Part shown: positions 6,401-59,200 of the stretch, piece by piece | How positions within the stretch are numbered: position 1 is the first letter of the stretch | How the letters are laid out: each line of letters opens with the position of its first letter | Assembly (NCBI GenBank): GCA_031763025.1 | Contig: JASSKH010000024.1 | Span: forward strand, 7,444,523 to 7,508,522 | Reading direction: 5' to 3' | Length of the DNA stretch: 64,000 nucleotides | Source of the DNA: Macrocystis pyrifera | Lineage: Eukaryota; Sar; Phaeophyceae; Laminariales; Laminariaceae | Position numbers and translations under genes: made by a program | Notes under the pieces: generated by a model | Databases searched by the model: none | Seen by the model: only the letters and a program-made list of their open reading frames with translations | Told to the model about the DNA's origin: nothing

Positions 6401-6547
6401 TTCTTAACAAATATGTCTGTGGTTTTCACAATGGATGATGCAGGTACTAGTATAGGAATAGTTTAGGTGTGCAGGTATTTCCTACGAATGTTATTCCGTT
6501 CTTGTGCCACCCCCCTGGGCACTTCCTGGAGGGGAACCTTGTACTAC

Positions 6548-6650
6548 AACGGGGTCCGTAGTTAATGGGACTACATTTTGTTGATAAAAATAGGTAAATA
6601 TATAGTTTTTCATGTAAACCATAGCTCCTATCAACTATGGACCCCCGTAA
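6548..6650. mobile_element. MITE-like palindrome, family B
   Basis: The ends are inverted repeats: ACGGGGTCCGTAGTTAATGG pairs with CAACTATGGACCCCCGTAA. The interior is AT-rich. Related copies lie at 35,648-35,758 and 40,979-41,086. Confidence 0.78.
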
Positions 6651-15180: not shown

Positions 15181-15936
15181 GTTGGTACACACACATTACA
15201 GATATGAATATTAATAGTAAACCTGCAAAGTATGGAGCTAGAGCAGCAGCAGCAACAGCACGCACAACTTCTGTAGCATCGCAAGAACGATCAGGGCTCT
15301 CAGCTCTCAACGGGCAGTGCAACTACATTTGCGTCGATTGATCGGGCCCGTAGGAATGGACGCTGTGTGACTCCACGGACCGCGCATTTTTATCGGATAG
15401 AAAATACGCCGAAGCATGCGCAAAGAATGTCCCCGGTGTAAAAAAACGGCTGTGAACACCCCGGGAGAAAACACGCCGCACAGCAGTCAGTTGTGTCAGT
15501 TGTCTTTCTTTTTGTACCAAGCTAGATCAGTACACACACTCATCAGTCCGTCCTTGTCCTAATAAAGAGATACGTAGAATTTCCAGATACCTGAACCTCT
15601 TCTCTCCTTTCCTCTCTCTCATCTTCTTTTTTTCGTTTCTGCTGTCTGTAACTTGTGAAAAAAACCGAAACAAAAAATAATGGTAATTCCATGGGTAAAA
15701 GCAATTGAAAAGCCAGCGTACCAAGTACGAGAACACAACACAAGATCACCAGAAAATAACTTTACCCACCCAAATATATCCTCCGTGTGTGCAACTTTCA
15801 AGCATCGACAAGCATGAAAAGAGAAGCTCTCGCGGATCACACCCGGGACCCCGTAGACAAACCACATGACACCGACACCGGCCACCACGTACGCACGTGT
15901 GTATTTGTTGCTGTATGCCACGACAACTCGTCTCAC
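15181..15936 (-). other. Presumed first intron of the heat shock factor gene
   Basis: It follows the donor at 15,936. No further domain exon was recognised here. The open frames seen on both strands have no family features. Confidence 0.4.
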
Positions 15937-16342
15937 CATGGTTATTGAGCTGCCTGACGAAAGAAAGCAAGTTGCGGTGGTTAAAGAACCTCGGTATGAC
16001 CTCTTCCTGAAACAGATCGAGGCGCTTGATCACGAACGTATCCCCGTTCGTCGACCAGCCCACGATGCTGTCCGAGCTCGTCTCGTCCACCATCGCGAAG
16101 GTCCGGTCCAGGAAGGCCGGTAGCGGCCCGACGCTTGCCGGCCTCGTCTCGCTCTCGTTCTCTGCCTCTCCGCCCACCCCGTCCCTGCTCCCCGCTCGCG
16201 CCGACAAAGATAATGTTCGAGAGTTTTCCGCGTTGTGACCTACTCCTTCTCCTGGACGCACTTCTTCTCGTCGCCTCTTCCCCTCTGCTGACTTCTTTGG
16301 CCCAGTATCAGGCCTCTCGCTGTCTGGTGGAGGGGCGTCCAT
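15937..16342 (-). CDS. Heat shock transcription factor, first coding exon (partial gene)
   Basis: This exon encodes the N-terminus and most of a heat shock factor DNA-binding domain. These are nuclear proteins that bind nGAAn repeats as trimers and switch on stress genes. Residues 1-73 are charged and likely disordered, with a basic KRRREE stretch at 22-27. Residues 74-135 match the domain: PAFLDRTFAMVDE (helix 1), IVGWSTNGDTFVI (strands), FQEEVIPRFFNHRNLLSFVR and QLNNHG (recognition helix). The exon stops after the recognition helix at a strong donor, CATG then GTGAGA, so the wing and trimerisation region must lie in later exons. I could not find them between 8.5 and 15.9 kb. The start is the first ATG of the frame. 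Very long introns or a truncated gene are both possible. Confidence 0.85.
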
Positions 16343-16694
16343 GTTCTTCGCGGGCCACAGGGGCGGCTCAGGTGAATAGCTCTCGGCGTGCCCGGGGACA
16401 CCGGGCGGTTCCTGCTCTCTCGTTCGCTACATGCATGCGCTGCGGTCGGGGGGGGAAGCACAACCCAGAAAGAAAACTGCTGTTGTGGGTGAGAATAGCC
16501 ACAGAGGTACGAAGTGAATATACTGGCAAGTACAAGCAGATACCCATACATCATGTTTTCATCCCCAAGAAATGGATTGTAAATCCGGAGGATTTGCTTG
16601 CTACACTACTACTGCTGTAGGACTGGTGGTGTCTTCGCGATCGAAAAATTAAAACCTACTTGACTTTATGTTGCTACTCGTATACTTTTTCATG

Positions 16695-29223: not shown

Positions 29224-32200
29224 CTGCGCGAAGTGAGACACAAGTATGAAGGGTGTCGTCGGGTGTAGGGGGGTTTCGCGACGCGACTCAAAAGGTCGCG
29301 ACGCGACTCAAAAGGTCGCGAGGCTTGCGTTTTTTCATTTGGCTTTATTCGTGGCATGGGTGCCCGAATTTCAGATACGTGCCTTACGCACGACGGCCAA
29401 AAACGTTTCCAAGAGACCTGGAGGCATGTGTTTTCTCGTCCAAATGAGGATGTCAACGTTGATGGTTGCATGCAGCCAGCATGTTCTGTTCCGCGCGATA
29501 CATACCATCGTTGTGGTAGCGTCAGAGATTCAGGCCGTGCTGTATAACATCCCCCCCCCCCCCCCCCGATATTTACGGTCCTACGACTACGGCCATGCAT
29601 GATAATACACCCCCCCCCCCCCCCCCCGGATATTTGCGGTTCATATTTCCCATGGAAACCGAACCTCACTTGGTGTTACTAGGTGCATGTATATATCATA
29701 TGACGTATGTCATACGGTATAAACACGTGAAGCATCCATCGGATGGGCACCATGAACAACGGTGAAACAGCATATATAATAATTCATTAAATATTCCCTC
29801 GGAATATTCTAAAGCAAAACATGTTTGATTTTCGCACCGCGCGTGCTTTTCGTCTTTACCTTGCCAAGCTCGACGGTCCGAACCCTCGCCGCGAAATTGA
29901 GAGAGCAAGAAGACTCCTCTGCGCTTTGTATCACCGGGCTCACGCACACCAGCATCAGAGTCTTCGAGTCAGCGCTCAGCGAGTCCTGTTACGTCAAGCG
30001 GCCGCAGTGGATCAACGGGCGTGCGCGGGTGGGTGTCAAAGATAAAATTGTGGTGGCATTTTCCGAAAAAAATAGATGCAGGGAGCGATTTTTTTAAGCA
30101 TCATGTTTTTTTAGAAATTAATTAACAAAACAATAAACATCGTACGTAGCAGCACGGGGTCAAAGTTATTTTGTGCTCGTTTTTTTACTGTGGCAGCGCG
30201 GTGTCAACGTTGTTCCAGCGAATACGAACATCCGGAGGCGATGAGTTTGCCGTGTACGATGCGGGACACACATACATATTTATACCACTTCTGGACGGAA
30301 ACGTAAAGGAACGTTAGCGTACAACTATGGAGACACGAACGATGCAAAACCTAGGACAGATGATGATCTATCTGATCTATCTACTGTAGACCATCCAGTC
30401 CCTCACCTGCCGTCGTGAGAGGCTGTATGGGATCTTCATAGCACAGATCCAACCCACAAATGAACATGCGCTCGGTCGTGCGGGTCGTGAGGGTCCCACC
30501 CGTCAACATGGAGCTAAATCGTAGAAGATCGGGGATATATCTGCTTTTGAAAGATCTAGATCATTAACTGGGGATCAATGATCTATCTGTAAGAAGTGTG
30601 GCAATTCCTTTCAAATTTCCGTCCGGAGTGGCACTGTAGTACGAAAAAGAAAATTGACCCAGGTTGGATGTCTTCTTTGAGAAAGGGGTCTGTCGTTCTA
30701 AACTCTAAAGAGCCTTTTGCTTAAACGGTTCGTGTGAATCTCACAGCCTGGCGTTCTTACGTAGAAATAGGTGTTTAATTTATTACCCGAATTTCGTATT
30801 TTCCTCGTGAATCTCAGCCAGGCTTTCTCATTGCTTACTCTCTGACCCGAATGTCTTGTTTGTTTGTGAATCTCCTCGACCGGGTTTTTGTTTTTGCCCG
30901 AATTCAGTTTTTTTTCTCTGAAACTCAGTCTGGCTTTCTTACACAAGGCTCGTTTGTTAGCGGTTCATATCATAGATATCCTGTACTACATGCTCGTTGT
31001 TTCTGATACAGCGGTGCGGCATAGATGATACTGGCGTTACACAGCGCTTGTACGATGACACCACGAGAGTTGAGGAAACTGGCTGTGATCCTGGGACCCC
31101 GCATGAGTTTGTGCATTTGTCTGTTTTCCCTACCGACCTGTGGACTCCTCGTCTGTGTGGTCTTTCTTTTGTGAACCTACGTGCGGCCTGGGTTTTGCGG
31201 CAACGAGCTAAACATTACGTCAACAACTGATTTTAAAATATATCCATTCGGTCGGGGTTGCACCTGACAACGGTAGTACCCCCACGATGCTTCGGCCAAT
31301 AAAGCTCATTGGCGTACGTGTGGCTTGATCGTCAGTCGCGGGTAGAGAGGAGTTACCGGAAGCACAAAAAAGGCAAGTACTTGTAGAAGGGCGGCGATGT
31401 GAGGGCGCTCTTTGTTTTTCATCCACCCCATTCATTTTCGTCGCCCTTGCTATATCCCTCTCTCCTATTGGTACTCGTAACTCAGATCCGGGATCACATA
31501 TACAGCAGGCTCTTCCACCCCTCATCTCTCTCCCCACCACGGTACATGCCTTGCATTTTTTTCCCTCGTCGATCCGCTTCGGATGACGCTTTAGGTAGGA
31601 CGGACTAACTCTTGACACCGTCATATCACAAGGGTGATAACACAACACACCTACTCCCTGGGACGGTTTTAAGCTGCAGTGGGTACCCAGATTTCAGAGC
31701 GCCCGAGATAGGAGCTTTCGGGCTTTTTAAGTGGTCAAATCGGCGTGTCCCGCCTATACTAACCCCACTGTATTGCCCAATATTACAGATAAGAACGTTG
31801 TGTAGTTAAGAGCGCCTGTTTCGGCTTGTCACACGGGGCGCTCTTAAATCGGGGTACCCACTAATGCACGAGTTACCCTGAAACTATCACGGGTGCCCCA
31901 TATACATAGACTCGAAATGGGGGGAAAAGAGGCTTCCCAATGTATACATGAAAAATACAAATGTGGCATGGATGGAAGGCTTATCATCAATCGCGTATTT
32001 GAAACAGACAGCATTTTCGGTTCAGGCAGTAGTTCTTGAGATACATCGCGCCAAAGGGCGTGCTTTGGGCTTGTTTTGGGCCTGTTTACTCTGGCCGTCC
32101 GTAATAGCGGGGCACACACAACAAAAACACAACGGCGGACATTGGAAATATATGGTCGAGATCTTTTGCGTTGGACATATCGCTCAGCGTTTTCAGTACG

Positions 32201-38200: not shown

Positions 38201-41200
38201 CGCAGCTCGCAAAGTTGAGTATCAACTTCTTGATCAGTCGAGCTCACAGCTGACGTATTTCATAAATTTATAAAATGAAGACGCATAAAAGAACGACATC
38301 CCAAACCGTTTTGACGAACTTAATTCCTCCAAAACCAAACTACCCCTGCATCTCATCCATCCATCACACAGCGACTTGCCCCCCCCCCCCCCCCATTTGT
38401 AGGTTGGGTTGGCGTCGGTTGGTGACGACGCTGTTAAACACGCCTTTCACTGCGTGAGCTAGGCAGCCAGGGTACCGTTTTCTTTTTTTGGCGGTTACCA
38501 CGGCTGGCGGTCAAGTTAGATCATTTTTGTGCGGGGAGAATTGTCACTCCGCACAAGGGAGATGATCGTATCACGTAGTGTGTATGTGGTGAGGCACTCG
38601 CGAGGCAGTTTCATAGTAAACTCATTGCTGTCTCTGGAAGTGGCCACACGAGAAACTAAATCAATTAATTGATGCTGTCATTCACATGCAAGAAAATCCG
38701 CCTCTAAAACAGTTCTTAGTAGGTTGCAGCTCACCCTTCATGCGACTCGCCCAACACCTCGCGGCGCTTCTCGCTAGGTGCAAGCAATGTCTGCCTGGTC
38801 GGTGAAAACCCGACCTGCTCCGTCCCCGCATTGTAGGGATGTGAGGGTCTATGGTCATACGACTACGGCCATGCACGATAATGGGTACACCCCCCCCGCT
38901 AGCATCTCCGACGAAGTGTGATTCAAAAACCCGCTGTTTACAAAAATGGCTGATTTGTTATTATTGTTTTCGTATCTGTTTGCGTTTGCTACCCTCGACA
39001 ATGTGCAGTATAATATAAAGTTGAGCTTAAACGTTGATCACCGTAGAACAAACCTTCCGCGAAAGAAAGAAAAACAAAACCAAGCGAAATTGATTTTTTG
39101 GTAGAACTACTGTAAGTCAGTCGGTTAGACAGCTTGCTTCGCCAACCAGCTAAAACAACCACTGTAGCCGTAAGGTCCATCCAGCTCTCAGTTACCCTAA
39201 GAGGGGGGGCGGGGGGGGCTGCCTGCTCGCACCTGCAACAAGTAGGTCAGTGTAGAGTTCCGGTACGGGACGTGCGCTTGGCGAGACGCACGGGCCGATA
39301 TGACGTCTCCCAGGGCGCTCAAGCTCCTGTTGATGTTTTGAGCCTCGCGCAACGCTTGCCCCGCCGCCCCGGACTGTTGTCGTCGCGGTCAGCGTTTGTT
39401 GGTGCACATACACAAAATACGTCGGAAGGAAGAATGATGAAGACGGACAAAAAGCAGAAACCAAAAAAAGTAGGGTCGTGTAATCGTGTTTTACGCGCGC
39501 GTGCAGTAGGCCGTATGGGATTGCACGAATAAACAAAGCCGTTCGTACCTCGTAACTGGATGTCGCTCGTGAGAAAAACAAGAAAAAAAAAAAAAAAAAC
39601 GACAAGTCCACGCTCGGTAAGGCTGTGGATTTTCAGGACTTCACGGCTAGTTGATACGAGGGGGGCCATAGGATTCTTATAACTTAGAACCTAAAAGCAG
39701 GGACGCGGGAAGCGTGTCGCCGTGTGTAGAGAAAGCCTCCGGACTGTGCAGAAAAAGCGAGAATAAACGTATTTATCCCGGTAGCATCACACACCGTCTT
39801 TGTTTCTGATTTCTCTGTTCCAACGTGATACTTGGGCGGCGAAGCGAAGTAAGCCAACCACTGTAACTGGCTTTAGCCTGTATCAATGTACAGTAGGGCA
39901 CAAGTCGAGCCGCAAAACGTGACAGTCAAATTATCGCAAAATTACCGCACTAAATACGTACTCAAACGAGCTTTTTAAGTACCTGTAAAGAGCGTTGAGT
40001 TCACACCCAGGGGTCGATGCAATCGTTTTTTTTCACCGCTCGATTTTTTTTTTCCGAGACTGAGGGAAGGTTAAGGTTGACAACATAGTACCGAACAATA
40101 TTTAAGGTGGTTTTGGATAACATTTAAGGTGATTTCGGAAAGATCTGGCCTTGAGATAGAGAGCCTTCCTAAAATGTAATGTTTGGCTTTAGCATCCTTT
40201 ATATCGTTCTTTGTCCCAAAATATAACGTACTCGGTACGACTTTAACACCCTTACCGTTGCCGCGAGAACGAGCGCTAGCTGAGGGATCACACCTCTAGC
40301 GCGAAGTCAGCGCTCTTTAACCCCGTTAGGGCTGTTAGGACCACAGTCCCGTTTTGGGGACAGACCAGCCAAATTCCAACTACTTTGGCCCCGAAACGGG
40401 ACTACAATGAGGTCAAAGCCTACCACTCTGTCCCAATATTTAAGGACTGTTTGTACATGAATATTCAGTACAAAACGGTCGATATGTTTCGGGATAAAGT
40501 GGTAGTCGGCGCCTAATAGTCAGCCTGCTCGCAGCTCTAGTAATAACGGATTGGGGCTTGTATTTCAGCTCGGAGTGGGACAGGTCGCTCGTGAGGAAAA
40601 ACGGCAAATCCGCTTTCGGAGTGGCATAATAACACCTTGGACAAATAAATGATGATCTATCTATCTAATCTGTCTACTGTAGATGATCTAGCTCCTCGCC
40701 TGCCGTTGTGAGAGGCTGTGCAGGATCTGCCTTTCAGGGCAGATCCAACCCAGGAAACATGCGCTATATTAGATCGTGCGGATTCTTTTTTACGGGTTCC
40801 ATGCGGCAACACGAGCTAAAGATCGTACACATCAGGGATAGGTGATATATCTGCATTGAAATATCTAAATCATCACGCGGAAATGATCCGTGGATGATAT
40901 GCCCGAGATGTGTACCCTTTACGCCGGCAAAGTATTCAGCATAACTGGACTGTTTTTTTCGAGAACCCACGGCAGAAGTATTACGGGGGACCATAGTAAA
41001 TAGGACCTACGGTACACACAAAAATGTATGTATTTACCTATTTTTACTAACGATATTTGGTCCTATTTACTATGGTCCCCCGTAATAGCACAATACGCCC
41101 TCTTGGGGCAGAAAAAGAGCAGAATTGGACTCTTTTTTTTCAAGGAGCATAACAGGTACCACTCTGGACCACTCTGGACGGAAATATAAGGATCGTTGAG

Positions 41201-44200
41201 TATTCCTATTCAATTATAAGCTCTCCTTGTTTTTCCGACCAAAGTAGTGTAACGGAGCGAAACTTAAGAAAGCGTAAATCAGAATAGGGGGGGGGAAGGC
41301 ACAATCAACGATGAAAGCTCATACTACACATGATCGGATGGCAAACACAAATATATATATATATATAAAAATTGGTTTCCAGCACCTTGCTGATGCGTTC
41401 GCTCCCCGCGAGATCGATAAGGTGCAACCGTCCCGCCGATGTGGCTCCTGTGTGTCGGTTCACTCCATCCACGCGTACGGATAAAATCAGGTGGCTGGGT
41501 GCAATGGAGGGGGAGTTAGAGGGGCGAGGGGAGGGGGTAGACACAACGCGGGCCAGGGAGGAAGAGGGTGCTTTCAGTAGGAATTTCCATTGCTGTATGG
41601 CCGTGATCGCCTGTGCTGAGCATTGACCACGTAAGTACAGGCTACCCAGCCTGCACTTAAACAGACAGATCACAATATACCTGTTTACTGCTTCAGATCA
41701 TCTAGATCCTAGCTTGACGTTATGAGATGTTGTGCAGGATATGTATACTACAAATCCAACCCAGAAGACATGTCATAGAGTTTGCACATTAAGCAGGTCC
41801 CACGCGGCACCATAAGCGAGCCCGTCTTCCCTGAAAGATGTAGGTCATGAAGTGGGAATCGATGTTACAGTAGGTTCGAGATGTGAAACACTTCGAACTG
41901 GACAGGTAAGCTCCTGGCCAAAAACCCCGCTAGGTTCTACTAATGGTAGAACTTTGACGTTGTTCCTATCGAGCAAACATATTGTTACGAACCATGACAA
42001 AACGTGACATTTTCGCGAATCGTGATGCATATCACGAGACGTGTGATTTTTTTTTTTTTTTGGAAAAACAAAAAAACTTGTGTCGCGAATAACTTATTTT
42101 TATTGTTGTGTTTACCATCCGACAAAGTGCACCATGAGCTTCAACGTTGATCACTTCCTGAAAAAAAAAAAACGTCATTTACTTTCGGAAAAAGTGACTT
42201 TGACGTCAATTTACAAACGCCACCAAATCGCCGAATCAAAGAACAAAACGAAAAAATAGGTCGTACTTACTTCTTGTGGAAACGTGGCTTAACGCCAGTT
42301 TACAAATGCCACGAGTCGCCATTTTCTTGTTTTGTCATCAACGAACTTTGCATTCGTTAGGAATGAGAAACGCCACTTTGTTTTTTATTGTCACGATTTT
42401 TTTTCGTTCATTAGGAATGAACCTTTGCTCGATTCAGCGGAACGGTGTACTTTCAACAGAAACATGAAAATCATTCGCACTGGACACGTATGCACCTGGT
42501 CAAATTCCTATTCTGGGTGGAGCATAGCATTCAGAAACGACGAGGGGCCTAAAATCGTGTATCCTCCTATGCTCACTATGTTTTCCCGTAGTAGACATTT
42601 ACTCGATTCACGCGAAAGAGCTGAAGGGGAGGACGGGGGGGGGAGGTGCACTCATTATCATGCATGGCCGTAGTCATACGACCGTAGACCTTCGCATCCC
42701 TACAATGCCGGGACGGAATATGTCGGGTTTTCACCGACCAGGCAGGCATTGCTCGTACCAAGCGCGAAAAACCGTGGGGTGTCTGGCGATTCGCATGTAG
42801 GGTGAGCTTCGTTCTACTAAGAACCGCTTTTGAGGCGGACTTGTATATGGATGACAGCTTCAATGAGTAAACCGCCCATGCTCTCGGACGGGAAAGGTGT
42901 CGTGGAAAAGGCCATGGCAGGTTTCGATGGTCGTTTGTCTGAAAGTGATAATCATTTATACCTGTATTGAAAATGCGGCTACAGCAGTTCCGTTCTTTCT
43001 CAATCTGACAAAGATTGGGGTTGAGAACTTGACCTTGAATGCAACAACAACAACAACAAGTGCGACCAATCGTCGGCCGCGGTCGTCGCACCACGCGCCA
43101 CACACTATTCAGGCAACGGAACGACCGAACCTGCGCGAGCCGTGGTCCTTGAGGTTGAGCCTTGGGTAACAAAAATAACATATAACCGAACCGCCAGTCG
43201 TCGTCGCACCACGCACGTGTTCAAACAACAAAACCAGCTAACCTGCGAGAGCTGTGGTCGTTGAGGTTGGTGCAGGCGGAGGCCCTGTTCCTGTCAGCGA
43301 TAGCAAGCATCCTCAGCACCTGTCCCAAGAGTCCAACGGGGGGGGGGGTGTACTCATTATCATGCATAGCCGTAGTCGTATGACCATAGAGACCCTTGCA
43401 TCACTACAAGCCGGGATGGAGCACATCGGATTTCGCGGACCAGGCAGACATTGCTAGCACCAAGCGCGAAGCGCCGCGAGGTATTTGGCGAGCTGCATCC
43501 TAACGGGGGATTTGGGGCGTGTAGGCCACAGCCGTTGCTCTTATGTCGCGCAGACGTCTGATGTAGTGTGCTTAGCTGATTGGTGTGATTCTTGTACCTG
43601 TACTTCATCTAGGGAGATCGTTTAGATAGCTATAGCTCCCCGAATTCGATACATATTTATATGGGGTGTTTTTTCAGGGTCTCAGATCGAAGGGGATAAC
43701 GCTCCTCCTTTTTTCCCACCTGACTTGCTTGTTTTTTTACAACAGTATAAATTTATATGTCTCTATCTCTTTCCAGCCTCGTGGCTTTCTGGGTCTTCAC
43801 CCACCGTTCTTCGTGAGCGAGACAACTCGCCTAGCACTCGTGCACCCGACTGATCCAGCAGGATGTGCTCACTTGCTGCTTGTCTTGGCCATTTGACCAT
43901 TGACTACGCACCCCTGTCGAGACGGAGCACCGTTCCTAGCGCCCTTTCCTACTCCCGATAGAAACCCCTCCAATATTCGGGCGCTCACTACGCGTTTTAC
44001 ATGTATTACGCTAAAAACAAAAACTACCTTATCCCCTTCCTGCTCTGCTTTTTGTGGCCACTAGCTATCTCCCAGGGTGCGGGAGGTGTGTACTTGCGTC
44101 ATGCATGGCCGTAGTTGTATGATCATAAACCCTGGCATCTCTACAATGCCGGGACGGAGCACATTGGGGGGGGGGGGGGGGGGGTACTCGATAGGAGAGA

Positions 44201-47200
44201 TGTACTCGATCTCATATATGGCCGTAGTCGTATGACCATAGACCCTCGCATCCCTACAATGCCGGGACGGAGCATGTCGGGTGTTCACCGACCAGGCAGA
44301 CATTGCTTGCACCAAGCGTGAAGCGCCGTGAGGTGTTAGGCGAGTCGCATGAAGGGTGAGCTGCATCCTACTAAGAACCGCTTGTGAGGCGGACTTGCAT
44401 ATGGATGACAGATTCAATTAGTTAGCTTAATTTCCGGCGTGGCCACTTCCAGAAACAGCAATGGGAGTACTATGTGACTGCCTCTTGGCTGCCTTACCTT
44501 GAAAACTACGTGATACGACCAATTCCCTTGTGCAGAGTAAAGGTTCTTTACCCCGCACAAATGATCTAACTCGACGACCAGCTGTGAGCGACCGCCAAAA
44601 AAAAAACGGTACCCTGGATGTCTAGCACACGTGGTGAGCGGCATGTTTTACAGTGTCGTTGCCAACCGACGCCAACCCAACCGATACATAATATATAAAT
44701 GTTGGGGGGGGGGGGGGGTCAGAGATACACCAAAAGGTCCCTGAACGTTAGGTGTTGGCGTTGATGAGTGCTCTGTTCCCGGGCCGGCAAGGAGGACTTT
44801 CGTTGATAGCTTGCACCACATAGATGCGACCAGGCCCGCGTTTAGCACACAACGTACTTTCCAAGCCTTGGAAACGGCGTAGACGTGTGGTACCGTAGGG
44901 GTAGCTCGCACGTATTTTCTGATAATTTTCTGAGGCTCTCCTCACTCGAGAAACTCCACACTTTTCCGAAGTCATTACTGAGTCACACGACAAAAAATGT
45001 TTTTTCATAAAAATAAAAAACCGAAGGCTTCACCTTGGGCTATTTATACCACTCTGTCCCAAAGCATTTGTACTGTTATCATTAAATACCATATATAAAA
45101 TTCTTATCATATTTGGGAACAGACTGGTATACATATCGTAAGTATTGTTCGAATTGCACTCTCAACCAAATTGGGATCAACGATATTGGGTAGTACCTCG
45201 GTTGAAGAGCCCCCGTCAGTCCCAGTGATAACAAAAATAGCCAAAAAATGTGTTTGTTTCCCCTATTGTATCTAGCACGCCTCCGTGGCGAGACCCATCA
45301 CACCGCTGTGGCGTCACGTCCGGGAATTCAACTCCTTCTTAGGACTGTTAGAACTGCAGTGGTCCAGCCTTGGGGGACAAACTATTCAGGATTCGAGTGG
45401 TTTTGTCCCCCCGAAGCGGGCCTGCGGTCCTGAAAGAGGTTAAAGCGACAATCTCGTCCAAGACGAGGGGGTTGCCGTCGGGTCAGAAGGGACGAGCTGC
45501 TATAATAGCTACTGTTTGTACAGTGGATCGCTCAGACAGCGCCGACACTGAGTGGTCTAGCGGGTTGTCCCTTCGGCCCTGACTCGAGTGGTCTACAGTA
45601 AGAAGGTTGTAGGCCTTCGGCCCTGACTTGAGTGGTCTACGGTGACAGGTTATGCCCTCGGCCGCAAGAATTGCCTACACCAGGTACGTATCTTGGTCGG
45701 AGTTATTTTGTTTGGACACCATCACAAAAGCCTACGTATATCATACGTGCGATACAACGTGATCTTTTTATAAATTTAATCCCGCACTACAGTAATCCGA
45801 AACGTTGATTAATTTCCGCCTACAGTATGTACCACTATATCCCGAAATATAAGCACTGCTTGTATTTAAGTTAGTGTACAAGCGTTCCTCATTTCGGGGC
45901 AGAGTGGTATGCACATACGAGACACACGACATATTATAGCGAACTCAAGAGTACACCTTTGCTGGTATGTGCTCCTGACTCTCAACCCTTTTTTTTTTTT
46001 TTCTTCGTTTTGTTGGTTAAATTTTTGTCAACTCCTTTCAAGGGCAAACTGCAGTCAGTCCCGTTTGGGCGACAAGCTACTCTAATTCCAAGCAGCTTGT
46101 CCCCAAAACGGGACTGCGGTGTCCTACGGTAGTAAAAGGGTTCAGAACTGCACTGCGCAGAAACATGAAATTGACTTTAACATATTTTGTAAAACGTCTC
46201 CAAAACGGGAGAGTCTTCCTTAAGGGATCAACGGTTTAAATAAACCCTCCGGCGGAAGGGGACTCGTTCGTGCAGGAAAAATCGGATAATCTCAGAGGCC
46301 CGCGCTCGATTTCGCCTGCTAGGTTTGCGTCGCAGTTGTGGTACGGCAAGGCAAACTCGTTGTCTCCTTGGTTCCACCCACCCGTCCATCCGTTCCCCAT
46401 CCCCCCCCCCCCCCGCGCGCGCGATTTTTTCTTCGTTGATTTCGGACGCTTCGCGCCAATAAGTTTAGCATCGTCATCAGTGTACTTAGTATCAACATGG
46501 CTCGTCGTCGAAAAATGAACACCGCTCTGTGCGCGGGACACGTGCTAGGGTAGAAAGGCACCGAATATTTCCTGAGGTTCCTCACCTTTGTGGAGCTCTA
46601 CATCCCAGTGACACCCAAAAACTGCTTTTGAAAGAAAAGAAAGTGCAATGGTTGATGAACAATCCCATGGCCTGGGTATATGTGCCAAAAAAAAAACATA
46701 CTTGCATAAAATGAATGACCTCCCGACGATTGTTTGGGCAAGGAGCACCCCGTCATTCGGAAAAAGAAAAGCCGAAAAAGTGCTACCCCTAGCGTAGCAC
46801 GCGTTTGGAACAAATGCCTTCTGAGGATCCTCACTTGAAGACTTTTATACTATCAAGTAAGTCATTAGTAAGTCGCCCAAAAAGCTGGCTTTCAATCAAG
46901 AAGAAATACGCACGTAACCCGATGAGCGATCGTAAAAAAAACGAACGATGTTTCCTGCGACATCGGGTAGTTCCTCAGCTGAAAAGCCTCTTTGAAGTCA
47001 CTAAATGGTTTGAAATGGTTTGACCGAAATGCGCTACGTGTGTACCGCTGTCTGTCGCAGAACGCATCCCTTGTACGTCGGGATAGAGTGGTACAGCAAC
47101 ATACCGGCACGGGTTAGTTTTTTTTTTTTTTTTCATTCCCGAACAATGTATCATGCTGTCCAGTGCTATCTTATGTTATTGTTGTTCTTCCATGTGCCAT

Positions 47201-50200
47201 ATCTGACAAATAACGTGCAGCTATTTTATTCCAAGCAGATACCGTTCCACACATAAAAGGGTGGCTACGGTAGACTCCAGTGACTTATAAACGTGGTAAG
47301 TGCTCTCAATCAGGCCTGAAATGCTTGACAAAAATATTGATATACGGTCTGCCGGCCTCAAGAAGCTACCCGTACGACCCAGGAGAACAGTACATTTTTT
47401 GCCTCACCTCGTCTTGGCTGGCTTGAAACAGGCACCGTGCTGAGCCCTGGGACATTGTTGCCGCGATCCCCCTGCCTCACCTGCGGTCGTGGCGTCCCCC
47501 GGCCGTGGGTGGGACGTGGGAAAACGCGCGGTGTGGGCGCGGTTTGTAGCGGTAAGCTGTCGCGCTGAGGCTGCTGGTCAGAGCGGCAACGATTCGTTGT
47601 TGCCTTCGTGCTTATAGACGTATGATGTGGTAAGGGTGAGGTAAACCTGAGTTTTCTCATGATCCTCCGACCTTCCTCGCGTGAGGAAGGAGAGCTCTGT
47701 ACACTACTGTAAGTACCCGCAGTCGGGCTTTTAAGAAAGAACGCACGCTTACCCAATATGACCAGTGATGAGACTCGCATTTGAGAAAAAACGCACGCTT
47801 ACGCCTGTATGACCAATGATGAGACCCGCAGTCGTGCTTTAAAAAAAAAAAGCACGCTTACCCCCCGATGCCCCCGATGCCCAGTGAGCCGATTTGGCCC
47901 AGGTCTCCAAACTCAAGAATTGATCTTACGAAACGGGGGAAGTTGCAGCAGCAACAACCACGACGACGAACAATTCCATAGCCTACAGGAATAATTTTAG
48001 ACAAGTAAAAAATGCCTCAAACTACGAGTAATAGTGGGGACTCCCTTCTCTCAGTTGAGGGAAGCCCCCTCCGTCAGTCACGAATGTTTCGGTTAAGAAA
48101 GTGCTACGAGTACCCCCCATCGAGGCAACTCGTCGACGAGGAAGAACGCGGTTTAGATTAGCTCGTTTTTGTCGACGTGACTCTACGCCACGACAGGGCA
48201 CGTGGTGCAAATGTTCCGCGACCCGGAAGGACCGTGGTGGGTTATCGCTGCGTAATCTGGATACTTCCAAGACAGATCTACTCCTGACCTTGTATGTTAT
48301 CGGGTCCACGTAATCTAGAGCATGTTTCCTGGGTTGGATGCGTTTACTGCTAGGCAGGTCCTGCTCGGCGTCTCGCAACGGTAGATGAGGACCTATATAC
48401 CGCAGTGGATGATCCGAGGCGTCCAATGTTGATGTTCACATACATACTTAAATACCTCCAGCTTTCGTTGGTCTCCCGCGGCACCGCCCTCGATCAGAAG
48501 GTCGCGGATCTGCTCGTTGTAGATTTCCAGGATGGAGAGCGTGATCGTGTCGTCCACCTGGGTTTGTTTGATGGTTCAGTTTGTTTTACGAAACGGGGGC
48601 GCTTTGACACAAGTGTGGATCCAAGCGTTTTAATTTGCCACGCAAAAAAATCGTCCTGGAGGGGTAAGAGTTTTGCACCAGATTGCTGAAAGAAGTGTGT
48701 GCGCCTTGAGTTTCACTGCTGTAACTACGCTACAAGCTCATGTGACGGTCATCAAATTTTACTACCCACGTGCTCAAGCTGGCTGATGGGTGTATTGTGG
48801 ATTTTTTATGGTGTGCTGCTGGGGGATAGGTAAGATACCACTTGACAAGTACCACTTTTGACGAGCTGTAAAACAACGAAATATGTGCTTGTGGTCGTGC
48901 TTATCGAAGATGAAGTTTGAACGAATTTTCCACTTTTGTTTCTCTCCTTGACTTCCAAAACAATTCCAGCAAAACGGAAAAATTGGAAAATTAAGCTCTC
49001 CAGCTTTGTTTTTACACCCTGGTTAAAATTTCCAGATTTCCTCCTTTTTTTGTTTGCATTTATTGGGAAATCAAGAAGAAAAAAAGTGAAAAACTCGACA
49101 GAACTTGCTCCGATAAGCACGGCCTTTAGGGTGAGCACCCCGAGTCAAGAACACCCCGCGACAATCCTGAGCCGAAACAACAGCTCTTAACTCCACATTG
49201 CTCTTATCTGTATTGGGAAATATATACCAGGAAGGCCAAAACCGTAAGGGACTGGAAGAAATCGTCAACGAGCTGATGATGTACCCAGGTCGAAGCTCAA
49301 TGCCCGAAGATGAATATGTGTATGTACGTGTGTATGTATGTATGTATGTATGTATGTATGTATGTATGTATGTATGTATGTATGTATGTATGTATGTATG
49401 TATGTATGTATGTATGTATGTATGTATGTATGTATGTATGTATGTATGTATGTATGTATGTATGTATGTATGTATGTATGTATGTATGTATGTATGTATG
49501 TATGTATGTATGTATGTATGTATGTAGGGTTGGACACCCACGAGGAAGTTACATATTAAACCCATTGCTGTCTCTGGAACTGGCCACACCATAAATTAAA
49601 TCAATTAATTGACGCTGTCATCCATATGCAAGAAAACCCGCCTCTAAAGCGGTTCTTAGTAGGATGCAGCTCACCCTTCATGCGACTCGCCCAACACCTC
49701 ACGGCGCTTCGCGCTTGGTGCAAGCAATGTCTGCCTGGTCGGTGAAAACCCGACGTGCTCCGTCCCGGCATTGTAGGGATGCGAGGATCTATGGTCATAC
49801 GACTACGGTCACGCATGATAATGATTACACCCCCCACTCCCCCCCCCAAAATGATTGGAAAAAAAAGATCAGACTACGTATAGTAACGCAACTCATCATT
49901 GAATTAATTTTCCCCACCTAGCCCTCCCTCCCAACAAGCGATTATTTGAAGGATGCAGCCCACCCTTCATGCGACTCGCCGAATACGTACACACAAGGTT
50001 CCCCTTCGGGGATTATTCTGGTCGATTTGAACTCCCGGGGGGTGTCGTAATTAGCTGAAAACGGGAGAACCACAGCAGGCGTTCGTTTCCTCGTAATATA
50101 CGTACCAGCCACATATATGTGTGTATACTCGTGTGTACCCACCGCGCATGAACGAAGAACACAAAAAAAACTTGAAAGCTGAAGAAAAAAAAAAAGCACC

Positions 50201-53200
50201 GGGCAAGTAACACCGACCAGTCCACGACGAGTTTGTAGTTGGTTCTATGTACAACTGCCGTAGCATGTGTGCAGTGCGAAATGAGAGTTATATAGGCTAT
50301 TAATAACAGGGATCTTTCTCTTACCTCTCCCCTCCGTCCGGCACTGCGCGTGAACAGGTCCTCTAGGGCGCGCGCATTGACTCCGCGATCGCCGGGCGGG
50401 CCCATCATCGTGTACGTTTTGCCCGTGCCGGTCTATGCACAGAGCAGGGGGAAGGCATGGCCGATGTCGGCGGCAGTGGGTTCGGCAGCAGAGCGGGGGG
50501 GGTAGCGGTGTACTCATGTCATGTATGACCGTAGCCGTATGACCATGGACCCTCGCACCCCTACAGTGCCGAGACGGAGCACGTCGGGCTTTCACCGACC
50601 AGGCAGACACTGATTGCCTGCACCAAGTGCGAAGTCGCCCTGAGGTGTTCGGTTAGTCGCATGAAGGGTGAGCTGTATGCATCGTACCAAAAACCGCTTG
50701 TGAGGCGGACTGCGGCACCTTGTAGATGATTTTTTGCATATTGATGACAGCGTCGAATGCGCAAGAGGCTTTAAAAGCGGAACCCTGTTTTCCGTGGTTT
50801 CACCGTCGTACTCATACAGGGATCAAATTTGATCGGTTCGGGCAAAAAAGTATTGGGTGGAACGGCGGAGAGAGAAAATTCTTATGTTGCTATCGCTACG
50901 CCGGTGAACACCCAGCCGACAGCCCCGCGCTCACCCCGGCGTCACCCCGGCGTATTCGGGGAAAGCACAAAAAAATGGGATAGCCACACGGCTGACAACG
51001 GTCAGTCGCCGTTACTGCGTGCTTGTTACGCTACGGCAAAGTAATCGTTCTATAAGCCGCTCGCCCCTAGTTAACCTCGAATACTGCTACGTAGCGTATG
51101 AGCGCTAGGGTTTAAGTTCATGTTGTGACATTGCGTCGTAGGTTAATTCGTATATAGTTTGGGGTCAATGAGGCCTTCTGCTGCGACCAGCCGGAGACTC
51201 TCACCTGGATTTTCTACCCCCGCTATGATTATCTGGCAATCAACGCGGCACCCCGTCGCAGAGACTAGGTACCCCGGTAAAAAAAAAAAAAAAAAAACTG
51301 ATGTCGTTGTCGACGGTACACTTCGCTACCAACGATGGACGGCGGGATGGTATGTTTTCCCTAACCTCTTTCTACTTTGTCGTGCTGTTGTCAAGCTTCG
51401 GTGTCGTCCATGGATTGGGCTTTAACCACCGCCTCCCAGTACATCAATTAGGCTTTCCCGAAGAGGGGTTCGCCCTGCTGGCGTCCCCTCTCTTCTTCCT
51501 TTGAGAATACGGCGGGTTCCCAAAACAAAAACAAAAAAAAGTATGTCAAGTGCTTTTTTCCTATCGCGGAAAGCGCAAGAGCGTGTTTCAGCAAAAAATT
51601 ATGGAATTTAACGAGCAGTGGAAACGCTGAACCAATCCTCTGCGCGATAAAAATGAAGGCAAGCATGGTACCGCGTGGGAGAGAAGGGAATAAGACACCT
51701 GTGACCACGGTTCTGGAAAGAAAAAGTGACAGCGGATTTGAAAAACAAATGGTGCGAACAAGAAGGTTCGGCGCGCGCCGCAAACTACGGAATAGTGCGC
51801 GCGTGTGGTGGCAGTACCTGACCATAGGCAAAAATACAGGCGTTGTAGCCGTCCATGACGCTGATGACGAGCGGTGAGACCTCTGCATACACCGTCTCCT
51901 GTCTGGCATCCAGCCCGAACACCTTTAGAAGCAAAAGACGGGCGGAAAATATGGCGCAAATTCGACGCGAGTCGACGAAAGGGAAGAAAGGGCTGATGTC
52001 TTCTCGCGATAAAGAAAAGCAAAGTACGAAGCGTACCGGGGAGGGGGAGGAGGAGCGCCCCCGCTATGTGAACAAGGATCTGAGTTACGGCGACCAAGAG
52101 AGAGCGAGAAAATAGGGGCCAAGACAATAAACGAGAAAAATAAAAAAAACACAGAAAAAAAGGGAAAAACGGATATGACGAACACGACGACGACGATGAG
52201 AGAATACAACGCCTACCCTGCACAAAATCCCGGATCAACGGTTTTTTGGTCAGAGCCGGTGTCTGGACTGCCGCTCGTAGTGAGAAGCGGAGCCAAAAAA
52301 GTCATATCGTCGGACGAATGTTGCTGCACTCACGTTCGATGACGCGACCAAGTGACGTAAATAGCACGGACTGGTGGTGGTGTTACGGTCCGTCGTGATT
52401 GGTGGAAGCAAAAAAATGTTTTGTTTTGTTTTGTTTTGTTTTTCCATTTCCCATCTGACATTGTGTGTAGCACTCATTATCCGATCATACCATCCACGTA
52501 CAAAAAGGGAATCCAGAATTCGACGACTTCTGGCACGGGGAAGATAATGTAAATACAGACCTGTAACCGTCTGTAGAACGACACAAGAGGTTTATGACCA
52601 CTTATTAACAAACAACACCATTCCCCTTGTGCAGGCCCGATGCTCAAAATAAACGATTCTCTTTGTGCTGAGGCTCGATGCTATGTCACACCCCGTCATG
52701 TATACACAACGCAAAGAGCGTGATTTCGCACGGCAGGGAGTTGCCATCGTTTATCGGTGCTTGAATTTTGTTCCAGAACGGGGGAAAACGTTTGGGCCAG
52801 TACCGAACACGGAGGAAATGGTCGGTCTTGCCTTCGTCGCTTAATGTGAAGAGGGTCGAGAGTTGGTATGAGACAACAGGGATGTCGATGCTGGATAGGG
52901 CACGCTGCTTGTAGTTCACGATCTTTTCTTCTTATTGCTCCACAAGTGAGTTGAGATAGAAAGAGAGAGCTCGGGCGAGCGAGGTGGGCTGGTGTATTCG
53001 GCAAAATATCTGGTCGAGGAACAGAGCCTTCCGGAAAATGTAATAATGTTTCGACTTAAAAGTAGCACCGTTTCTTTCCGTTCTAAAAGAGAAAAAGCAA
53101 GCGGCGAAAAACGATCCCAACACTTCCTTACGGCATTCCCATCAGAAGAAGAAGTTCCGATGGAATCGACCCCTTTCGAGGTAAGGAGGCGTGCTGTGGT

Positions 53201-56200
53201 AGGGGAAGGATTTTCTCTGGGAAAATTCTCACATGAGGAGTATTTTATACCTCAACCAAAACAAAACAACGGAAATGTGAGACGACTCGATGAAACAACC
53301 TCTCCGGCCTCTAGGCGCACTGCTCCTGCCGAAATGTAAAGACCACTCGGTCTTCGCAATAATGTCTAAACGGCCCTTATATTTCCGACTATAGTGCTAT
53401 ATATCACGACACAACATGTTAAAACGTTACGGTAGGTAACTGTATTCCCAGTGACAATGGGTTAGCACGTTAGCCGAGGAGTTCTGTCAGTTACAAACAT
53501 TTTTGACGAAAAACTATGTGCTACGTAACCCTGAAGGAGCACGCCTCCAGGCTCGTTTCATGTCGCGCGCCCCTCCCTCCTCTTTATGTACCCCCCCCCC
53601 CCCCCCCCGCACGCCCTATATATTTTATACAGGTTGGGTTGGCGTCGGTTGGCAATGACACTGTAAAGCATGCTGCTCACTTCGTGAGCTAGACAACCAG
53701 GGTACATTTTTTTTTGTTTATTGTGTTTTGACGGTCGGTCACAGCTGGTGGTCGAGTTAGATCATTTGTGCGGGGTGGAGAACTTTTACTCCGCACAAGG
53801 GGAATGATCGTATCACGTAGTGTTTGTGGTAAGGCACTCACGAGGCAGTTATATAGTAACCCCATTGCTGTCCCTAGAAATGGCCACACCGGAAATTAAG
53901 TTAACTCGTTGAAGCATCCATATGCAAGTCCGCCTTACAAGCGGTTCTTAGTAGGATGCGGCTCACCCTTCATGCGACTCGCCGAACACCTTCACGGCGG
54001 TTCGCGCTTGGTGCAAGCAAATGTCTGCCTAGTCGGTGAAAACCCGACGTGCTCCGCCCCGGCATTGTAGGGATGCGAGGGTCTGTGGTCATACGACTAC
54101 GGCCATGCATGACAATGAGTACACCCCACCATAGCACCAGTCTTTCTTGGGGCCAAAAATTACGTACAACTGCCACGCATCTACCGCAGCAATAGGTCTA
54201 TTTTATTCCCGCGCGTGGCGGCGAACCTGATCGAACGCCCACGACTTCCTCTTGCTCCGCTCGTTGACAAGCTCTATCACCCCCTCGCCCGGGAAGGAGG
54301 TACAGACATTTCCCCCCTTGTCGTGCCCCGTAACCGGGCGGCACCTGCACATCACTCGGATATTCCCTCGCAGTTCCTGCACGCAGGCGTGATAAAAGGA
54401 GGGGAGGGAGGGTGCGGGTGGAGGAGAGGGGTGTGGGGGAGTATTCATGTCGTGCATGATCGTAGTTGTTTGGCCATAGACCCTCGCATCTCTATATATG
54501 CCGGGACGGGGCACAGTCGGGTTTCCACCGACAAGGCAGACATTGATTGCTTATACCAAGCGCCAAGTGAAACGTGAGGTCTTGGGCGAGTCGCATGAAG
54601 GGTGAGCTGCATGCGTCCTACTAAGAACCGCTTGTGAGGCAGGTTTTGTTCCATCATATGGATGACAGCGTCAATGAATTGATTTTTTCTGATGTGGCCA
54701 CTTCCAGAGACAGCATTGGGTTTAGTATGAAACTGTCTTGTGGGTGCCTTACCATATACATACACACTACGTGATACGATTATCCTCCTTGTGTGGAGTG
54801 AAGGTTCTCCCCGCACAGAAATGATCTACCTCTACCGCCGGCCGTGGTGACCCCCAAAAATAAAACAAAACAAAACAAACGGTACCCTGGTTGTCTAGCT
54901 CAGGCAAGGAGAGGCGTATTTTTCAGCGTCCTCGCCAACCAACGCCCAACCAACCTATATATATATATTCCAGGAATATAATACAGGGGAACAGCGTCAA
55001 TGAATCGAGTTTATTGTCGAGTGTGGTGACTTCCAGGGGGGGAGGGGGAGGGTAAGGGTGGGCTGGGGTGGAGGGGCGGATGGGTGGGAGGATGAGGGGG
55101 CGGGGCTGGGGGTGGGAGTGGAGGTGGCCGGGGAGACGAGGGTGGGTGTGAGGGTGGGAAGGGAAGAATACGCGTGAGGGTGGGGGCGGAGGGGGCCGGG
55201 CGGGGGGGTAAGGGTAAGGGCGGCGATGGGACCCCGGCGGCGGGCGCACGGGCCGGTGCTGGGAGAGGGGCAGAGTTGACGCTAACGCGACTGAGGGGGG
55301 TTGATAAAACGGTTCGAGCTTGCGGGGTTGCCGGGAGGTATTGGCGAATGATAATGGTCTGTTTTGGGGAGTTTTTGTATCTGAGCGAGTAGGTCGATAA
55401 ATCGTCGGTCCATTGATTTCGCCACACCGTATTTACTTTACGGAGGGTTCTCCTCTCGACCAGATCTCTTTCGGAGAACACTTTTGTTTTTCGGGATTGG
55501 AAAACCTTAAGCTTCCCCCGTTCTGCGATAAAAATTGAGCGCGCTGAAGAACGATCGCGCACCCCCTGAGCTGACTCAAACGCTCTTCGGACTGCACTTC
55601 CATTGGTGCAAATGCGAGAGGGCCTCAGATGAGCAGCCTCAGAAATTCTACAGGCACCCGTACCGTAGCCTAGCATGCGTCGGCGGCAACCCCGAGAACC
55701 GAAAACGAGCGAGTTTTCCCGTGGCATATGTATGTATGTACTCTGTCCAAGGTTTTCCCTTTTGGAGGCATTCGGACGTGGGGTTACGCAAGGTAAAAAC
55801 CCGCGATGACGTTTTGGTGCAGCTGAAAAAAATAACACGAAAGGTCACACCAACAGTTGCAAAAGTTGAAGTCTATACTGCTGAACAGCCCAAAAAGTCA
55901 GAGGCATAACGACCAGCGAAAGGAAATCCGTGTTTTCAGGGTTGCAAGAAAAAATGTTATCAAAAATAGATGCTGAGATTTGGTGCAGCTGAAAGAAAAC
56001 GAAAGGTCCACCAACCGTGGCAATTATTGAACTCTATACAGCTGAACAGCCCAAAATGTTAAAGGCATAACGACCAGCGAAAGGAAAATCCGTACATCAA
56101 TGTGTGTTTCCAGGTTCGAAAAGCAAAATTCTCGATTCTGAGATTGATTTTGGTCGATCAACGGTTCTTTTCTCGCCTGCACAACGTTGAAGAGGCGCCG

Positions 56201-59200
56201 ACGCTCCCGGTACTCGCGCGCGTACTGCCTTCTCACTTCCGCCATCTTCCCCTCGACGCCGCTTAGCCGAGCCTGTCACCGAGGGAGGAGGAAATGGAGG
56301 AGAGAAACCACAAAAAAAGACACGCACACGTCTGTGCCGGCAGCGGCGTGGACGCTGTGCATCCGCTACATATCGCACCACATTCGCAGCTACTCGGTCA
56401 TGCTTTTGCTGAAAAAAGGTGCGGGCGGATCTATCGACACGCGGTACAACGTTTGTAGCCGAAAGTACTACGGCTGTTCACAGGTCATGACCCGACCAGC
56501 GGATCGGGTCAGCAAATTTCGAACTCCCACGGGTCGGGTTGGGTCGAGATATTTTCAAACCTCGTACGAATCTGTTTGGGTCATCCTTGCTCCTAACCGA
56601 CCAGACCCGGCCCGACTCGACTCGACTTGACCTGATCCGCCCCGACCCGACCCGACCCGACCCGACCCATGAACAACCTTGTAATATTTTACGTCTGAGT
56701 GACCCCCACCTGCACAGCCCCGGCGGCGACGGTGGCGACGTCCGGTAGCGCGCGGAGTCGATTTTTGACCTCAGCTCCCAGGCGGCGGAACGAGGCCCTC
56801 TCGCACGCCACCTGCTCGGCGAGTTTGCGCACGGCCCGCTGACCATTCGCTTGCAGCGCTAGCAAGCGTTGAACCTGTTGCCGCGCGGATGAGCGAAAGC
56901 AGTAAGACGAACGGCACGAAGGAGAGTCAGCCAGACAGTCAGTCGAAAAGTAGAGGTGTGCTAAGTGTTTTTACTATTCGCAAGCAACAACAAAACGACG
57001 ATGAAGATGGGAGCCGGGGGAGGGTGTGATCATGCCGCGCATGGTCATAGTCGTACTATGACCATAGACCCTCGCATCCCTACAATGCCGGGACGGAGCA
57101 CGTCGGCTGTTCACCGACTAGGCAGAAATTGCTTGCACCAAGCTCGAAGCGCCGTGAGGTGTCCAGCGAGTCGCGTGAAGGGTGAGTTGTATGCATCCTA
57201 TGTATGCATCCCATTAATACTAGACACGGCTGATGAAGCTGACTTTCTTGTGTATGGATGACAGTCTCGATTGGATTGAGTTGGGGTGCGGGGGGGGGGG
57301 GTGATACTCATTATCATGCATGGCCGTAGTCGTATGACCATAGACCCTCGAATCCCTACAATGCCGGGACGGAGCACGTCGGGTTTTCACCGACCAGACA
57401 GACATTGCTTGCACCAAGCGCGAAGCGCCGTGAAGTGTTGGGCGAGTCGCATGAAGGGTGAGCTGTATCCTACTAAGAACCGCTTTAGAGGCGGATTTTC
57501 TTGGATATGGATGACAGCATCAATGAACTGATTTATTTTCTGATAAGGCCACTTCCAGAGACAGCAATGGGTCTACTATGTAACTGCCTCGTGGGTGCCT
57601 CACCGTATACACACTACGTGATACGATCATCCCCCTTGTGCGGAGTAAAGGTTCTCCCCGCACAAACATGATCTAACTCGACCGCCCGCCGTGGTAACCG
57701 CCAAAAAAAAAAAAAAAAAAAGGTACCCTGGCTGTCTAGCTCACGCAGTGAGAGGCGTGTTTTACAGCGTCGTCGCCAACCGACACCAACCCAACCTATA
57801 TGTACCAGGTATATAATACAAGGAAGGGGGGGGGGGGGAAGTAAGGGAGAATAAGCTAAGTTTCGCTTGTCATTGGACATGCAGGGTGATATTATTGTGT
57901 AGAATAGTTGTCTTTTTTATTTGCTGACGATATCCACCAAAGCGCATCTGGAATACCTTCCAAGCAAGCACGGCGCTCCTGGGTACGTTCAGATTTCGAT
58001 CGTACCGTCGTTCCTGCGATACCTGCGCGCCGCTGATCGACATGGAGGGTACCTGCCCTTTCAGAGACGGAGCACCGGACTTCGTCGACCGTCTTTGCGG
58101 CAGCGACGTCAACAAGCAGCCGTTGAAAGGTATGCCGGTACCCCCTGGGAGATACCGAAAAACATAATAATCACACCAACAAAAAATGTATACCAAGTAT
58201 ATGGACAAAACAAATGTAACGTACACCAGGAAAATACGAAGTATATTCATGGGGGTGAAAACATTATGTTAAAAATGTTTCGAGCAGACATCGTTCAGCC
58301 CTTGCCCTCTCTGTCTCCTGTTTTTGTTTTTGTTTTTTCTCGTCCAAATTCCCAATTTTTCAAAACTTACGGCCAAGGGCTGCTTTGCTGGCGGAAAAAA
58401 AAAAAAAAAAAACACTCTACGTAAAATGTGTGCTGTGCTCGATTACATAAAGGAAAATATTATTAGGGATGGAGAACCGATATGATAATAATCTGCAGTT
58501 TGTTGTTGTAGAGAGAATTAGGTGTTATGGTTCATATTCTTTGGCTGGGTACGTATCAGTAGTACGTAGTCACTTCGACAGCAGCAGCGGGCACTGTTTG
58601 GTTGATCGTGCTTGTGGGAGTACCAAGTGGATACCGCACGGAACGGTGCTGGCAGACTGGTAGAACACGCAAACAGACAGGACTCGTGGCTGGCACCTGG
58701 ACAGCGGTCGCTCGCTGGACCAGGGATTCGTCAATTCTTTCTGGATCAGGTATTTCATCAATTCTGATTCAACATCGACCATCTTTAGATTGGAAAAATT
58801 GAAAAAAAGTAGAAATTTGGAGACGACGTGAAACAGTGACTATTACTTCTTGTACTACTGCACTGCGCAGAAACCTAAGTTTGACTCTAATTCCAAGTGT
58901 TTTGTGCCCACAACGGAAGTGCGATCCTGGAGGAGTTGAAGGGCCAATGAGGGGCGTGAGCTTTGTACGATTCTATTGGCCTGACATAACCGTAGAACAT
59001 GGTCGGCCAAAGCACCTACACCTCGAACAGATCATCTACAGATCACTTGACGATCTAAATCATTCAAGACAGATATATTCCTGATCTTGCATGACCTAGC
59101 TCAGGTTGCCGGGTGGGGGGCCGTATAATCCCCACGATCTACAGTATCACATGCTTTCTGGGATGGATCTTTTTTATGCAGATCCTGCACAGGCCTCTCG

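Follow-up and report, generated by a model that had tools for sequence, protein, structure and literature searches.

A 64,000-nucleotide stretch of the genome of the kelp Macrocystis pyrifera (NCBI GenBank assembly GCA_031763025.1, contig JASSKH010000024.1, positions 7,444,523 to 7,508,522 of the forward strand), here called the window, harbours many copies of a short repeat of ∼500 bp, most of which adjoin runs of C. It also contains a degenerate fragment of a partner long interspersed nuclear element (LINE). A preliminary description of this DNA had listed at least 12 copies of the repeat, five of them near full length. Copy calling with a profile of length 514, built from 16 near-full-length copies, identified 13 copies in the window, and the five named before are all real. 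Twelve of the 13 fall within 38379-57838 and the 13th is located at 29573-29606. The features are as follows (window coordinates, strand).

29551..29579, forward: left target duplication, C17-GATATTTACGGT
29573..29606, forward: short 3' remnant of the element
29610..29640, forward: right target duplication, C18-G-GATATTTGCGGT
38379..38394, forward: C16, 5' junction of a near-full-length copy
38395..38889, forward: near-full-length short element, profile 14-514
38890..38897, forward: C8, 3' end
42648..42870, reverse: 5'-truncated copy, profile 287-513, without a 5' C-run of at least 6
43349..43498, reverse: 5'-truncated copy, profile 365-514, 3' end with C11
43865..44076, reverse: degenerate 3' fragment of the partner LINE, 71% identical to positions 4810-5006 of its copy in locus L029
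44098..44168, reverse: 5'-truncated copy, profile 434-504, beginning after C19 and AA
44166..44184, reverse: C19 (sense), shared, serving one copy as 3' run and the truncated one as 5' run
44185..44704, reverse: near-full-length copy, profile 5-513, of a subfamily with doubled tail GAGTACATCTCTCCTATCGAGTA
44704..44718, reverse: C15, 5' junction of the copy at 44185..44704
49519..49828, forward: 5'-truncated copy, profile 204-513, with a TGTA microsatellite as left flank, an exception to the C-run
49933..49987, forward: fragment without both ends, profile 329-383
50510..50756, reverse: 5'-truncated copy, profile 294-513, without a 5' C-run of at least 6
53591..53608, forward: C18, 5' junction
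53609..54123, forward: near-full-length copy, profile 8-514
54446..54977, reverse: near-full-length copy, profile 3-507
57033..57281, reverse: 5'-truncated copy, profile 284-505, lying downstream of the neighbouring copy and its C12 tail
57290..57301, reverse: C12 (sense), 3' end
57302..57826, reverse: near-full-length copy, profile 2-512
57826..57838, reverse: C13 (sense), 5' junction

Five of the window copies have both ends (starting at profile positions 14, 5, 8, 3 and 2 of 514), seven are short at the 5' end only, one is short at both and none at the 3' end only. A random sample of 20 pieces of 10 kb (200 kb) from 8 of the 223 contigs contained 23 copies, distributed over 10 of the pieces. 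Seven of these were complete and 15 lacked only the 5' end (three of them cut by the edge of a piece, leaving 12 uncut); one was short at the 3' end only and none at both. The earlier claim that shortened copies always lack the same end therefore stands for seven window copies, but not for the fragment at 49933-49987, which lacks both ends, nor for the 3'-short copy of the random pieces. Equal truncation at both ends, named in advance as evidence that would speak against retrotransposition, was not seen, since 5'-short copies far outnumber 3'-short ones in the random pieces. The one-sided truncation in both samples supports 5' loss of the kind that target-primed reverse transcription produces. 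The 3' end is mostly constant. Most copies end as had been described, with GATAATGAGTACA followed by C8-C19; the window exceptions are GACAATGAGTACA-C4 at 54123, GAGATCGAGTACATCTCTCCTATCGAGTA-C19 at 44202, GACATGAATACTC5 near 54446 and the 49933-49987 fragment without a 3' end. A C tract on both sides was confirmed for four of the five full copies, but in the copy at 54446-54977 the 5' flank is merely C-rich, with interruptions. One of the hairpins reported earlier, TTGTGCGG..CCGCACAA, was recovered in one of two copies tested. With its one-sided shortening and mostly constant 3' end, as expected of a LINE-mobilised retroposon, the repeat is a non-coding, non-autonomous retroposon of ∼500 bp that mostly loses its 5' end.

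The element is abundant throughout the assembly (537,376,219 bp in 223 contigs, to which all genome-wide counts refer). Two of its exact 19-mers occur 11,134 (tail 19-mer) and 8,720 times. The string GATAATGAGTACAC7 was found 1,977 times against 0 for its reversed control, so that the recurrence is not due to chance. Runs of C≥11 after a non-C base number 139,737 in the assembly. GAGTAC followed by A, C or G and C11 gave 15,202 matches against 43 for the reversed control, so that 10.9% of these runs follow the GAGTAC(V) end of the element, variant tails being uncounted. The density in the random pieces corresponds to roughly 60,000 copies of the short element, a rough figure since copies cluster. 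In nine loci (L001, L002, L004, L005, L035, L036, L039-L041) the short element lies within shared flanks, and L001, L002, L004 and L005 are ∼98% alike over 3 kb; those of the contigs with a stated length measure 62-121 kb. These loci are either duplicates that were not assembled apart or a long repeat unit.

The preliminary description had suggested a search for a LINE partner that shares the 3' end of the repeat. Such an element, with the same 3' end and C-run, does exist. Through the related tail ...AACAAATGAGTACG-Cn, a LINE was located in locus L026 and then a long copy in L029, which encodes an endonuclease (PF03372, E 9.6e-11) followed by a reverse transcriptase (RVT_1, 1.6e-29) in one frame of 1137 aa. 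This order, an apurinic/apyrimidinic endonuclease (APE)-like domain ahead of the reverse transcriptase, is that of an APE-type LINE and was found in one copy. After a frame break, a frame of 257 aa follows, the stop TGA of which lies inside the shared end AAATGAGTAC, so that the 3' untranslated region (UTR) of this copy comprises ∼4 nt plus the C-run. The reverse transcriptase piece gave 6,164 first-look candidates, of which 150 were scored and all were 90-100% identical, and the LINE is probably present in thousands of copies. For the first 900 bases of L029, 316 first-look candidates were obtained and 40 scored (41 matches), which suggests that only a minority of the LINE copies reach into the 5' part. 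Of three further loci, two (L055 and L057) contain the 5' end itself, directly after a C-run and ∼0.88 kb upstream of the first base of L029, giving a total length of ∼5.9 kb. The third, L056, has a truncated LINE, and C7 stands just ahead of the break. The 5' part contains tandem repeats of ∼127 bp (L055 2114-2750); LINE promoters built from monomers exist and are analogous. The viral contigs searched contained no relatives of the LINE protein or of the tail.

Both ends of the short element are shared with this LINE of the same genome. Comparison of the tails gave a local score of 32, whereas 500 shuffles reached at most 15. The head matched the LINE 5' end at two loci, scoring 36 and 35.5 where shuffled sequence gave no more than 16 and 13, respectively. 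Identity of the head is clear for ∼50 bp and extends perhaps to ∼80 bp. The head, for which no origin had been recognised before, is thus LINE-derived as judged from the two LINE 5' ends obtained from three loci. The middle of ∼370 bp scored 13-19 against the LINE pieces, with reversed controls at 14-18, and a derivation of this part from the LINE pieces compared was rejected. The short element is a bipartite LINE derivative whose middle resembles none of those pieces.

The common 3' domain can be folded into two hairpins. In an alignment of 31 tails (7 of LINE type and 24 of the short element, from 36 rows after removal of the false matches L010, L015 and L018 and the duplicates L005 and L041) this named fold pairs in 92.7% of the cells, and its covariation score of 0.083 was reached by 4 of 500 shuffles. 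RNAalifold predicted the first hairpin together with a closing stem, GCUC paired with GAGU, at the extreme end. The loop of the first hairpin is GAAA in the LINE and nine other bases in the short element, the stem being kept where the loop differs. A role of the 3' domain as recognition domain appears plausible from this modelling. The RNA of one copy folds at z = -4.25, and none of 100 shuffles was as stable.

A C-run was scored within 30 bases before each 5' breakpoint in the window and the random pieces together (264 kb), edge-cut copies being dropped. Runs of at least 8 Cs preceded 12 of the 20 truncated copies and 7 of the 13 full ones, compared to 0.99% of random positions (1.34% with a slightly different stretch). 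In the random pieces alone such runs preceded 9 of 12 truncated copies and 3 of 8 full ones; the corresponding numbers for the window, which is a non-random choice, were 3 of 8 and 4 of 5. The effect is strand-specific, as among 31 breakpoints from both samples 22 had C≥6, none G≥6, none A≥6 and one T≥6. The clearest exception to the C-run rule is a TGTA microsatellite of 52 units at 49319-49526 of the window, directly 5' of a truncated copy. A targeted set of loci, most of them chosen for an intact C7 tail, showed C≥8 at 17 of 25 and C≥6 at 23 of 25 breakpoints. Segmental duplicates (L001, L002, L004, L005, L036, L039-L041, L007, L042, L047, L048) had been removed from this set, as had L038, where the profile detected no copy. 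The LINE shows the same association: considering only copies with runs on both sides, the runs are C8 (L026), C10 (L024), C17 (L003) and C8 (L032), and further runs are C11 (L033) and C7 (L056), in addition to those before the LINE starts in L055 and L057. Remnants of ∼40 bp (L003 1550, L008 1548, L024 3651, L050 674) start within 3 bases of one another (CTATGGTCATACG), at the foot of the last hairpin. On the reverse strand, breaks by a C-run at this hairpin base number 99 of 5,668 against 24 of 4,395 at another site, a ∼3-fold difference; forward counts are inflated by overlapping matches. The recurrent breakpoint is a mild excess, part of which consists of segmental duplicates.

At five places a duplication was found that starts with the C-run and extends over 5 to ∼111 bases. 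These comprise the pair at 29551/29610 of the window, GCCGCC in L022, the LINE in L026 (GTTTTGGAA / GTTTTTGGAAG), L024 5487 with 108 identities in 111 aligned letters, and a second, shorter one nested in L024 around a ∼26-bp remnant (C15-TGTCC / C6-7-(G)TGTCC, read by eye). Copies are also nested. In L006 a short element is located inside the C-run after a LINE tail, and in L006, L007, L011, L022, L034 and L053 the C-run in the tail of one copy is immediately followed by another copy. An upstream tail at a distance of at most 110 bases was present at 5 of 33 breakpoints compared to 1.4% of random positions. Such nesting is expected if the tails are landing sites. The preliminary description had regarded the C-run as an unusual 3' tail. 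Since a sense-strand C-run precedes the start of truncated copies as well, with a G-run at none of the breakpoints scored, and since duplications starting with the C-run were seen at five places, the sequences indicate that the run is mainly the insertion target, although the RNA may also carry some C.

Taken together, we consider it highly probable that the ∼500-bp retroposon is mobilised by the ∼5.9-kb APE-type LINE and that both insert mostly in C-runs via target-primed reverse transcription. We propose that the LINE endonuclease would nick the G-strand at the border of a G/C run, and that an RNA ending in ...GAGUAC(A), perhaps plus some Cs, could pair with the exposed 3' end of the G-run. 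Reverse transcription would start there, guided by the folded 3' domain of ∼74 nt common to both elements, and a second nick might follow at variable distance. One run would become two in this process, so that each insertion leaves a new landing site. It is an evenly balanced question whether a LINE directed to homopolymeric C/G-runs, together with a passenger that retains only its ends, makes C-runs self-multiplying sites, each split run doubling the targets, and whether the LINE has almost no 3' UTR, so that the fold for template recognition overlaps the last codons and the stop.

Several observations weigh against the main reading, in which both elements insert mostly in C-runs by means of the LINE. 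In the window alone only 3 of 8 truncated copies follow C≥8, and 9 of the 33 breakpoints have no C-run of at least 6. A pooled test for duplicates beyond the run was weak, its sum being reached by 57 of 2,000 shuffles with 6 of the 40 rows from two segmental-duplicate groups; in most copies the run itself would therefore conceal a duplication, if there is one. Among the 51 runs of C≥11 in the 200-kb random sample, 22 touch a short element or LINE copy and 29 touch neither, at least one of the latter (L024 6877) preceding a remnant too short for the profile. Many C-runs of the kelp genome seem to be of other origin too. For the 3' fold, a single pair shows two-sided changes, and these occur in two duplicate loci; structures slid by 1-3 columns give up to five two-sided pairs, one slide reaching an equal score, and the second hairpin was not predicted by RNAalifold. 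Finally, three copies (L020 7034, L025 4529 and L026 5250) lack a left run of at least 5, although their right runs measure 14-47. In these copies some Cs may derive from the RNA, or left runs may have been lost. The same three copies would fit C-runs that belong to the element, as a poly-C tail of the RNA plus untemplated residues at the other end, and so would the nearly equal mean lengths of left and right runs (15.3 and 15.0 in 40 copies). This origin of the runs is nevertheless unlikely, since the duplications at five places include sequence beyond the C-run, left runs reach up to 69 nt, and elements are nested in the C-run after another element's tail.

An independent short interspersed nuclear element (SINE) with its own promoter, which acquired only the LINE tail and resembles the LINE head secondarily, would account for the ∼370-bp middle that matches no LINE piece compared, and would agree with the lack of any Rfam family at gathering score in three loci with the element or the LINE 5' end. 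We regard it as distinctly unlikely, since the head matches at two LINE loci at equal position directly after the C-run and since RNA polymerase III (Pol III) boxes are no better than in shuffled sequence. The best A box has 1 mismatch and the best B box 2; one A box with 0 mismatches occurs in the LINE 5' part, but 66 of 300 shuffles also reach 0. The preliminary description, which had recognised no such boxes, was right in this respect. A Pol III head was rejected, and the element contains neither the Pol III promoter nor the Pol III RNA head of a strict SINE. No Rfam family at gathering score and, by ARAGORN, no tRNA gene was found in the window. The three loci just mentioned (L043, L054 and L057) gave only three sub-threshold Rfam hits, none of them to a ribozyme. 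A hepatitis delta virus (HDV)-like ribozyme at the head was likewise dismissed for want of an Rfam match, which a diverged ribozyme could escape. A DNA transposon or other cut-and-paste element with a preference for C-runs is hardly credible. Its target duplications might be seen in the runs that flank full copies, but no terminal inverted repeats, which the earlier account had named as contrary evidence, were found in two copies tested, and a miniature inverted-repeat transposable element (MITE) was rejected on the same grounds. Moreover, 12 uncut 5'-short copies stand against one 3'-short copy among the 23 of the random pieces, and tail and head are common to the LINE.

Apart from these elements, the window contains an element of ∼110 bp (ATTACGGGGGACCATAGTAAATAGGAC...) at 40979-41088, 35648-35758 and 6542-6650. 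It occurs in many loci on both strands, has a palindromic look and is perhaps a MITE or foldback element. Positions 15746-16426 on the reverse strand are part of a gene with a heat-shock-factor DNA-binding domain (PF00447, E 5e-16).

Kojima and Fujiwara reportedly described in 2004 non-long-terminal-repeat (non-LTR) retrotransposons that target microsatellites and insert into simple repeats, as the kelp elements probably do. A poly-C/poly-G target is not known among them. The literature searched, with subscription journals mostly outside it, revealed no C-run target, no LINE with a near-zero 3' UTR and no such kelp family, though this speaks only weakly for their absence. The type of architecture has precedents, and the C-run target, the near-absent LINE 3' UTR and the kelp family are new to the literature searched.

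Ectocarpus harbours RTEX-N1_Ec32, a non-autonomous element of ∼600 bp that is more abundant there than any other single family. Its 3' end is RTE-X-like, and the origin of its 5' region is given as undetermined; Ectocarpus LINEs are frequently 5' truncated (PMC12477816). By description, the kelp element resembles RTEX-N1_Ec32 (with RTEX-1/RTEX-2_Ec32) as a small non-autonomous element whose 3' end is like that of a LINE of the same genome. In contrast to it, the kelp head matches the LINE, and a C-run target goes unmentioned for Ectocarpus in the passages of PMC12477816 consulted. The label 'undescribed' therefore holds for the element of this genome in the literature searched, but a very similar class is in print with RTEX-N1_Ec32. 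SINE-like elements with an RTE (or BovB) 5' head and an RTE tail include RTESINE1, MAR4, Bov-A2 and RTE1-N1_LA (PMC3747384, Table 1), which the kelp element resembles in architecture, as head and tail are both LINE-derived. The 3' repeats of green-algal RTEX elements are (CA)n, (CAA)n, (CCAT)n, (ACAATG)n and (CTTGTAA)n, with no (C)n given in Table 3 of the same paper (PMC3747384). In trypanosomatids, the short passengers RIME and SIDER accompany L1Tc/ingi and share a 5' signature of 77-79 nt that activates transcription and in L1Tc contains an HDV-like ribozyme (PMC4035085, PMC4748587, PMC2323293, PMC8190864). The kelp element is likewise a short passenger with the 5' signature of the autonomous element, but in contrast to RIME/SIDER the kelp loci showed no Rfam match to an HDV-like ribozyme, which if diverged could escape.

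The LINE-derived head offers an answer, for this genome, to the question raised in Ectocarpus about the origin of the 5' part in abundant brown-algal elements. About one tenth of the long C-runs of the kelp genome follow the end motif of the element. If the run is the target, insertion sites would be partly predictable, and the LINE endonuclease would be a possible G-run nickase.

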